Shown here: piece by piece, positions 11,280 to 13,009 of the stretch
Layout of the letters: the number at the start of each line of letters is the position of its first letter
Position numbering within the stretch: the first letter of the stretch is position 1
Assembly (NCBI GenBank): GCA_016932895.1
Contig: JAFGCA010000583.1
Location: 1-18,313, forward strand
Direction: 5' to 3'
Length of the DNA: 18,313 nucleotides
Source: Sedimentisphaerales bacterium
Lineage (GTDB): Bacteria > Planctomycetota > Phycisphaerae > Sedimentisphaerales > SG8-4
Made by a program: the position numbers and the translations under genes
The notes under the pieces: generated by a model
What the model was told of the DNA's origin: nothing
What the model saw: only the letters and a program-made list of their open reading frames with translations
The model's database searches: none

Positions 11280-12563
11280 ATGACGACGGACAAGTTGCAC
11301 CTGGAAACGTTGGCCTTGCACGCCGGGCAGACCCCTGACACGGATACCGGGAGCCGGACCGTGCCCATCTACCAGACGACCAGCTACTGCTTCAAGGACA
11401 CCGACCACGCGGCCCGGCTGTTTGCTTTGCAGGAGTTCGGCAACATTTATACCCGGTTGATGAACCCGACGACGGATGTGCTGGAAAAGCGTTTGGCCGC
11501 GATGGAGGGCGGGGTCGGGGCCCTGGCGTTAAGCTCGGGACAATCGGCTATCTATGTGAGCATTTTCAATATCTGCGGCGCCGGCGGCCATATCGTCTCG
11601 TCCAGCTCGCTGTACGGCGGGACGGTGACCCTGTTCGGTCAGACCTTCGCCAAGCTCGGGATCGACGTGACCTTTGTCGATGCGACCCGGCCGGAGGAGT
11701 TCGCCGAGGCGATCAGAGACAACACTCGATTGCTTTATATCGAGACCATCGGCAATCCGAAGAACGATATCCTGCAGTACGACCGGATCGCCGAGATCGC
11801 CCACCAGCACGGGATGCCGGTGATTTGCGACAACACCGTGGCTTCGCCGATGCTGTTTCGCCCGATCGAGCACGGTATCGATATCGTCGTGCATAGCTGC
11901 ACCAAGTTCATCGGCGGGCACGGCAACAGTATCGGCGGGGCGATCGTGGATTCCGGGCGATTCGACTGGACCAACGGCCGTTATTCCGAGCTGACCGAGC
12001 CCGACCCGAGCTACCACGGCGTCAAGTACGTCGAGAGCTTCGGCGAACTGGCCTACATCATCAAGGCCCGGACCCAGTTTCTGCGGGATATGGGCAGTTG
12101 TATGTCCCCGTTCAACGCCTTTCTATTCTTGCAGGGGCTGGAAACGATCCACCTGCGGATGCCCCGGCATTCGCAGAACGCCTTGCAACTGGCGCGGTGG
12201 CTCGAGAAACGTCCGGAGGTAAAATGGGTCAACTATCCGGGCCTCCCATCGCATCCGGATCACGAGCGGGCGAAGAAGTACCTGCCGGACGGCCAGGGCG
12301 CGATTCTCGGTTTCGGTATCGAGGGGGGCAAGGAGGCCGGGATCCGGTTCGTAAACCGCGTCAAGCTCGCCAGCCATCTGGCCAATATCGGCGACAGCAA
12401 GACCCTGGTGATTCACCCGGCCAGCACCACGCATCAGCAATTGACCGAGCAGGAACAGCTTGCCGCCGGCGTCACCGGCGATTATATTCGGGTCTCGGTC
12501 GGAACCGAGCACATTGACGATATTATCGCTGATTTCGAACAGGCACTCGCCGGGAGTGTTTAG
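11280..12563 (+). CDS. metY: O-acetylhomoserine (thiol)-lyase
   Basis: This 427-residue enzyme of the Cys/Met-metabolism PLP family makes homocysteine from O-acetylhomoserine and sulfide. It shows the N-terminal '[28 protein letters not shown]', the tetramer-interface '[22 protein letters not shown]', the PLP lysine K209 in '[11 protein letters not shown]', and the C-terminal '[10 protein letters not shown]' with '[12 protein letters not shown]'. The extended central region ([17 protein letters not shown]) separates MetY from shorter cystathionine synthases and lyases. The ATG at 11280 has GGGGGA at 11267-11272, 7 bases upstream; in-frame ATGs at 11274 and 11256 are less well placed. The stop codon TAG (12561-12563) lies inside the left repeat array of the four-helix-bundle unit, suggesting that insertion replaced the original end of the gene or its flank. 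Confidence 0.94.
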
Positions 12564-12586
12564 TTTTGAGTTTTAAGTTTTGAGTT
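12559..12586 (+). repeat. Left 14-bp repeat array (two units) of the four-helix-bundle unit
   Basis: TTTAGTTTTGAGTT (12559-12572) and TTAAGTTTTGAGTT (12573-12586) are tandem 14-mers differing at two positions. They are the reverse complement, with few mismatches, of the array at 12968-13009. The first unit contains the metY stop codon. The AT-rich composition contrasts sharply with the flanking genes. Confidence 0.85.
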
Positions 12587-12591
12587 AACGG

Positions 12592-12971
12592 ATGGCCGAG
12601 AGCATCGCACAGAAGAAGAGTTATGATTTTGCTTTGAAGATCATACATCTGTGTATACGCCTCAAAGAACAGAAGCACTTTGAAATCGCCAGTCAGTTGT
12701 TGCGGGCTGGAACGGGAATTGGCGCCAACGTCGAAGAGGCTCTGGCAGGGCATAGTCGAAAGGATTTCGCCGCCAAAATGTGTATCGCGTCGAAGGAGGC
12801 CAGAGAGGCCAACTACTGGCTGAGGCTGTTGACGGACGCGGTGATTCTCAACGGAGAGAGGGGAGAGATTTGCGTGCCGCATCGGAAGAACTCGTGCGGA
12901 TACTCACGAGTATTGTTAAGACAACACGATGTGGCCAGAAGGTCCCTGGGGCCAATGAAACGGCAGAGTGA
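12592..12971 (+). pseudogene. Four-helix-bundle (23S rRNA IVP-type) protein, frameshifted
   Basis: The first 90 or so residues (MAESIAQKKSYDFALKI, then LRAGTGIGANVEEALAGHSRKDFAAKM and 'KEAREANYWLRLL') are a clear match to the four-helix-bundle family first found in 23S rRNA intervening sequences and related to the Avd protein of diversity-generating retroelements. The typical C-terminal helix (RAASEELVRILTSIVKTT) is present but in the frame one base back, reaching a TGA at 12969-12971. The change falls in the purine-rich tract about 12853-12871. One lost base explains it, since restoring one base gives a 126-residue protein of normal length. As read, the original frame runs on through the right repeats to a stop at 13026, overlapping nifU, with an unrelated tail (144 residues in all). 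The ribosome site before ATG 12592 is weak. The protein's function in this family is unknown. Confidence 0.85.
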
Positions 12972-13009
12972 CAAAACTAAGAACTCAAAACTAAGGACTC
13001 AAAACTACG
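12968..13009 (+). repeat. Right 14-bp repeat array (three units) abutting the nifU start
   Basis: Three tandem 14-mers are seen: GTGACAAAACTAAG (12968-12981), AACTCAAAACTAAG (12982-12995) and GACTCAAAACTACG (12996-13009). Units two and three are complementary to the left array across about 26 bases with three mismatches. The first unit contains the TGA that ends the restored four-helix-bundle frame. The last unit ends on the base before the nifU ATG. Confidence 0.85.

Follow-up and report, generated by a model that had tools for sequence, protein, structure and literature searches.

The unit between metY and nifU in the window (the whole stretch of 18,313 nt from a Sedimentisphaerales bacterium that was analysed) is probably a small mobile cassette of a widespread family, in a copy whose gene has become frameshifted. 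A cassette consists of a left tandem array of 7-bp units (sometimes 8 or 9 bp), one four-helix-bundle (IVP) gene and an inverted right array. The usual setting is between co-directional genes, with the cassette pointing in the direction of transcription and often supplying the stop codon of the upstream gene. The presence of such a framed IVP gene at many sites in many bacteria suggests a widespread and little recognised mobile element. The protein family, PF05635, is known mostly from rRNA insertions. It is large, and to our knowledge no function is known for it. The coordinates of the features are given in Table 1.

Table 1. Features of the unit and its neighbours in the window, and plasmid loci at which a related element splits a gene
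Feature	Sequence	Position	Strand	Remarks
Whole unit (left array, IVP gene, right array)	window	12554..13009	+	456 bp
Left array, ~4.7 heptamers, GAGTTTT-type	window	12554..12586	+	holds metY stop codon 12561-12563
IVP (four-helix-bundle) gene, PF05635/TIGR02436	window	12592..12971	+	family frame, break at ~12853-12861
Right array, ~5 heptamers, CAAAACT-type	window	12972..13007	+	left unit inverted
metY, upstream neighbour	window	11256..12563	+	O-acetylhomoserine sulfhydrylase family
nifU, downstream neighbour	window	13010..13891	+	
nifS, next co-directional gene after nifU	window	13895..15052	+	
Split plasmid methyltransferase locus	L239	2240-3136		
Split plasmid methyltransferase locus	L318	1079-1975		
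Split plasmid methyltransferase locus	L320	902-1784		

A preliminary description of this DNA had reported a gene bounded by complementary arrays that pair over about 26 bases with three mismatches. This was confirmed: the arms 12561-12586 and 12982-13007 paired over 26 nt (88%, three mismatches), and the arms 12554-12582 and 12972-13000 over 29 nt (86%). The repeats had been read as 14-bp units, two on the left and three on the right. The arrays are present, but the unit is a heptamer with about five copies per side. Tandem Repeats Finder gave period 7 for the left array (12554-12586, 4.7 copies, 80% matches) and for the right array (12972-13006, 5.0 copies, 64% matches), and it also reported the right array as 14-mers (12972-13007, 95% matches). 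Period 7 besides period 14 means that each side holds about five imperfect heptamers which drift in pairs. The repeat pattern (up to three mismatches) had six matches in the window, all of them in the two arrays, with 0.15 expected, and a count of six was reached in none of 200 shuffles. The pattern is not due to chance.

The predicted RNA fold of the unit closes on the array arms (z = -4.97). Two further observations agreed with the preliminary description. The unit is AT-rich among GC-rich neighbours (GC 0.48–0.53 across the unit vs mostly 0.58–0.68 around it, 250-base windows), and it fills the metY-nifU junction, as the left array contains the metY TAG and nifU begins directly behind the unit. 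In an Rfam search of the window, a tRNA gene at 244-314 (67 bits) was the sole match, with none at the element.

The IVP gene of the window scored 69.5 bits against PF05635 (cut-off 33.8) and 77 bits against TIGR02436 (cut-off 24), in both cases over residues 5-89. The scores exceed the curated cut-offs, so the gene is a member of these families and is assigned the four-helix-bundle fold. The assignment made earlier therefore stands, but the reading frame is broken. The family match ends at residue 89, and the ORF as it stands runs from 12592 to 13026, past the TGA at 12969-12971 that ends the family frame. The relatives P0002 and P0003 are 95–97% identical over 63% of the query and continue '...LRAASEELVRILTSIVKT'. 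This continuation was found in the window in another frame, from 12870 up to the same TGA, which indicates a frameshift or a sequencing error at the break. Several relatives have C-termini (e.g. TKNSKLRTQN) and N-terminal extensions (e.g. MLSFKL) that read as translated arrays. PF05635 was the sole Pfam match of the unit's gene, and the unit holds no other gene. Accordingly, no RAYT (Y1 HUH) transposase gene was found in it by Pfam, and no transposase of its own by ORFs and Pfam.

Arrays of this kind were frequent at IVP genes of many bacteria. A scan of genome contigs gave at least 561 relatives, and the best 80 loci were analysed. They came from Planctomycetota, Bacteroidota groups, cyanobacteria, Verrucomicrobia, Chloroflexi, Deltaproteobacteria and others. 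Among these best 80 of at least 561 relatives, plus the window, a lag-7 score of ≥18/24 was reached by 57 of 80 upstream flanks and 60 of 79 downstream flanks; flanks shorter than 100 nt were omitted (L007 upstream and L028 downstream; L007 was kept downstream). The same score was reached in 11 of 411 control windows 1–3 kb away. Other lags from 4 to 12 gave 0 or 1 at the IVP flanks of the best 80. In a first pass over fetched genome loci, 64 of 91 had a lag-7 score of ≥17 on at least one side, and 24 of 91 scored with lag 5, 6, 8 or 9, through which arrays of 8- and 9-mers were recognised. Octamer or nonamer arrays in place of heptamers were seen at L100, L094, L146, L150, L128 and L167.

In a larger set, 205 of 218 elements had both flanks, and 193 distinct elements were left after removing identical genes. 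Tandem arrays were called in 164 of the 193, compared to 22 of 396 pseudo-elements (13 of these with period 7). The period was 7 in 143 elements, 8 in 16, 9 in 2, 6 in 2 and 10 in 1; no array was called in the other 29. The first 80 loci are the closest relatives of the query and the others the best-scoring ones per group, so the divergent tail is thin in these counts. Most of the genomes are drafts or metagenome bins, in which repeats assemble badly.

The arrays are not exclusive to IVP genes. With a stricter window, 42 upstream and 61 downstream IVP flanks of 77 scored, and so did 32 of 263 other intergenic gaps (lags 5, 6, 8 and 9 in the other gaps: 1 to 5 of 263). Period-7 arrays thus occur between genes of these genomes in general, with a strong concentration at IVP genes. 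In 12 genomes, a 21-base array pattern gave 45 sites, spread over 8 of the genomes, and by hand count 5 of these sites adjoined an IVP match; read backwards, the pattern is about the same and no real control, and it scored equally high in some genomes. Moreover, gene-less inverted pairs of heptamer arrays were seen by eye at L025 (11699-11787), L051 (4688-4782) and L055 (2954-3057), and these look like miniature derivatives. To the question raised in the preliminary description, whether copies of the repeats always flank four-helix-bundle genes, the answer is hence no, as gene-less arrays are also common. That repeats recur at other four-helix-bundle loci was borne out in so far as arrays flank most IVP genes sampled. 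The 14-mer itself is not the mark of the family, because unit sequence and length differ between elements.

Gene-less arrays are frequent: they occupy 32 of 263 control gaps, and 40 of 45 pattern sites have no IVP gene beside them. This would fit arrays that are independent intergenic microsatellites in or beside which IVP genes land, the likeness of left and right arising from insertion into one array plus inversion. We consider this explanation quite improbable. With the right unit reverse-complemented, 92 of 143 period-7 elements had left and right units at most one base apart, compared to 7.3% of cross pairs. The arrays are inverted: a match in direct orientation was found in just 8 of 143. 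In the remaining 51 of 143, the two units differed at more than one base. For period 8, 7 of 16 elements matched vs 5.0% of cross pairs.

The units also differ between elements of one genome and yet match from left to right, which counts against the microsatellite explanation. Inside six genomes, 21 of 31 own left/right pairs matched vs 6% of cross pairs. Seven elements called in the Nostoc genome G009 had six units, with an identical left and right consensus in each: AGTTAGG, AGGGTGT, CAATTCG (twice), AATTCAA, the octamer AGGGGACA and the nonamer AGGGGAGGC. No array was called in the eighth element of this genome (L163). Own arms were the best partner of 79 in just 16 cases of the first set (median rank 6; 79 of 81 elements ranked), because related elements share units. 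Finally, the array period follows the IVP protein tree, which also speaks against independent microsatellites: changes between period 7 and 8 numbered 8 over 157 tips, compared to a mean of 15.5 and a minimum of 13 in 200 shuffles. Array-free compact metY-nifU junctions in relatives lean in the same direction.

These junctions were compared by eye in the best 30 loci (a NifU match was present in 115 of 118 genomes). Six were filled (including L223, whose contig does not show metY), 11 were compact and empty, six held remnants (one array, or an array and a gene stub), six held other sequence and one had no metY. The preliminary description had proposed a search for empty sites in relatives, and the unit is indeed not present at this junction in all of them. 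Four junctions without an IVP gene (L226, L232, L233 and L237) had ATACGAG-like heptamers before nifU by eye, which might represent another array family using this site; L226, L232 and L233 were counted among the six with other sequence. In L228, the gap was 962 bp and held other, coding-looking sequence; the junction hence takes other inserts too. Between moeA and moaC, seven of 30 loci were filled (one of them in the query genome), ten had overlapping stop and start codons, three held remnants, seven were of other kinds and three had no moeA.

Copy numbers varied between genomes. IVP matches numbered 3–14 in 12 chosen genomes, 2–20 in the Nostoc group (all 53 genomes) and 1–16 in 49 of 58 genomes around G010, with none in the other 9. 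In the phylum of G012, 87 of 148 genomes had matches, and there were none in 14 control genomes. L173 and L174, two copies from one genome, are 91% identical and occupy unrelated sites. A gene for a DNA cytosine methyltransferase is whole in the Nostoc plasmids p057_N and pC052_C; among the loci compared, it is whole in L319, L321 and Trichormus (L316/L317). In p057_G, pNsp_c and pNPM1, the gene is interrupted by an IVP element whose arrays are of the CAATTCG unit, and 328 bp are lost. Movement of the cassette over time is well supported by these comparisons. As some sites are common to several species, vertical inheritance from old insertions may account for many copies.

Copying of the array unit from the target was considered for this one case and set aside: the empty Nostoc plasmids L319 and L321 have one CAATTCG at the left breakpoint, and Trichormus (L316/L317) has none. 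No general target duplication was recognised by eye at the metY-nifU, moeA-moaC or plasmid junctions, and no insertion in an otherwise identical background was found among the loci compared. L253 and L257 are 97%-identical elements, seemingly of one locus, which are turned round with respect to their flanks; this is suggestive of an inversion, with a scaffolding or assembly error possible because of a run of N beside the L257 array. Carriage by phages was rejected with an IVP relative in just 2 of 50,697 phage records (plasmid records: 24 of 72,556), and a role in defence was rejected because three relatives, searched at E 0.01, matched nothing in PADLOC or PHROG.

The mobility could also be borrowed. 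The cassette would then be a passenger of DNA transposons or MITEs, without mobility of its own and moved by IS transposases that act on outer terminal repeats. Such an arrangement was present in the Nostoc genomes G358 and G377 (L309-L313), where terminal inverted repeats of 24 bp (23/24 matching) bound a unit that encloses a cassette with GGGAGCA-type arrays. One copy (L313) has an apparent 8-bp target duplication, and the four copies of G358 end contigs. The 24-bp terminal repeat is common in the Nostoc group (52 of 53 genomes, ≤2 mismatches). Outside this case, outer repeats were absent by eye at the window, metY-nifU, moeA-moaC and L173/L174, and the 16-base core of the Nostoc terminal repeat was absent from all other loci compared. 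As a general explanation, we therefore regard the passenger role as highly improbable. The ends of the elements are arrays that vary between elements.

The orientation of the IVP genes was strongly biased. In 144 of 171 elements, the gene lay between two genes of its own direction, in 5 between genes of the opposite direction and in 22 between convergent or divergent genes; neighbours in these counts are ORF calls by length and not curated genes. The 171 are those of the 193 left after setting aside nine with far neighbours and 13 short of flank or of a called neighbour. Of the 69 of the first 80 loci that were counted, 55 had co-directional neighbours and 3 had neighbours against the gene. 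The upstream stop codon lay inside the left array in 59 of 88 period-7 cases. A flipped cassette would keep its hairpin form and reverse only the reading frame, and we infer from this that the bias points to selection on the transcribed frame. The protein itself is conserved, as judged from low dN/dS. The ratio was 0.00–0.19 in 17 pairs, copies at different sites included (17 of 18 pairs yielded a dS), and 0.03 for L173/L174.

Sense orientation and low dN/dS at fixed sites (e.g. L115/L119, dN 0.004, dS 0.42) would also fit a module kept by the host, in which arrays and IVP control or cleave the operon mRNA so that cys/nad/met and nifUS become separate. The protein would be selected for the host, and absence would mean loss. 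Occupation of one junction in several species and the stable predicted RNA stem in the window point the same way. The many unrelated junctions and many empty relatives argue against such a module, as do the similar copies at unrelated sites (L173/L174), the methyltransferase gene split by an element and the broken IVP gene of the window itself. Moreover, an excess of sense-strand G-U mismatches was absent (201 vs 208; 163 of 193 elements, alignment score ≥14), which argues against selection on an RNA stem. A host-kept module is thus unlikely.

For the mobile cassette, the following course can be envisaged. The IVP protein would be made by read-through of the host operon, would act on the paired arrays of its own element, either folded into an RNA hairpin or as DNA, and would help the element to reach other operon junctions. 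Some copies would later lose the IVP gene and persist as lone arrays or gene-less inverted pairs. That IVP is the agent of movement would be in keeping with this course, and a route through RNA is favoured mainly by the orientation. A reverse transcriptase acting in trans was set aside as the engine, as it showed no association with the number of IVP matches: one was present in 13 of 25 genomes with at least five IVP matches vs 12 of 33 with fewer (counted by hand).

We tentatively raise a broader possibility, which we hold to be rather less than evenly likely. The cassettes would form a distinct class of mobile elements with inverted microsatellite arrays as ends. Each element would have its own 7–9-bp unit, with a length set by the IVP clade; its protein would recognise this unit, and the element would move in an Avd-like manner, either as host operon transcripts or together with them. 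The class would then include classical 23S intervening sequences (IVSs) as well as the orphan heptamer arrays known from cyanobacteria, Xanthomonas and Beggiatoaceae, as branches or remnants. If PF05635 is the gene of an array-ended mobile cassette, the family would gain a role, there would be a hint at how IVSs reached rRNA, and heptamer arrays that have been puzzling in separate reports from several phyla would have a possible source. The pairs of element-specific unit and protein would be a ready system in which to study the reading of short repeats by a small four-helix protein. The habit of occupying operon junctions would matter for operon evolution.

Among known systems, REP/REPIN sequences with their RAYT transposase also have a gene flanked by inverted short repeats and gene-less copies elsewhere. 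IVP elements share both traits. Unlike in REP/REPIN-RAYT, their units are tandem 7–9-mers that differ between elements. IVP is not a transposase known to us. The Avd protein of diversity-generating retroelements is another of the closest known systems.

Heptamer arrays have been described before. According to the accessible parts of the reports, TAACTGA in Beggiatoaceae, cyanobacteria and Bacteroidetes and GGGNATC in Xanthomonas and Nostoc form intergenic 7-bp arrays adjoining operon genes, with 70–75 close inverted heptamer pairs per Xanthomonas genome (PMC4679880, PMC4692102). These arrays were described without an IVP gene: the accessible text of PMC4679880 has no mention of S23, helix bundle or intervening, and that of PMC4692102 none of S23 or four helix. 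We infer that they may be linked to IVP elements. In Flavobacterium, the accessible part of one report places a four-helix-bundle gene between the genes of guanylate kinase and nicotinate-nucleotide adenylyltransferase (PMC5524665), and this is another such junction. No publication linking arrays to IVP genes was found in the accessible literature, which for this search comprised neither preprints nor most subscription journals.

The nearest relative is the IVS of 23S rRNA, which RNase III excises from the RNA with no ligation of the ends. The unit of the window resembles it in the protein family, in the size of ~450 nt and in the complementary ends able to form a stem. The Coxiella IVS even has two to three tandem heptamers upstream of its ORF, as far as the accessible text of the report goes (PMC4990558). 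Unlike a 23S rRNA IVS, the unit lies in a protein-coding operon, between metY and nifU, its arrays stand on both sides with element-specific units, and there are many copies per genome. No 16S or 23S match was found in 278 loci (not all of them with an IVP gene). An IVS is defined by its position in rRNA, and the unit was therefore not filed as one. The idea of an IVS-type element in a protein-coding operon, as put forward in the preliminary description, nevertheless agrees with the shared family, the complementary ends, the many copies and the filled and empty sites. Hence, the cassette may work like an IVS outside rRNA, and both may belong to a wider IVS family.
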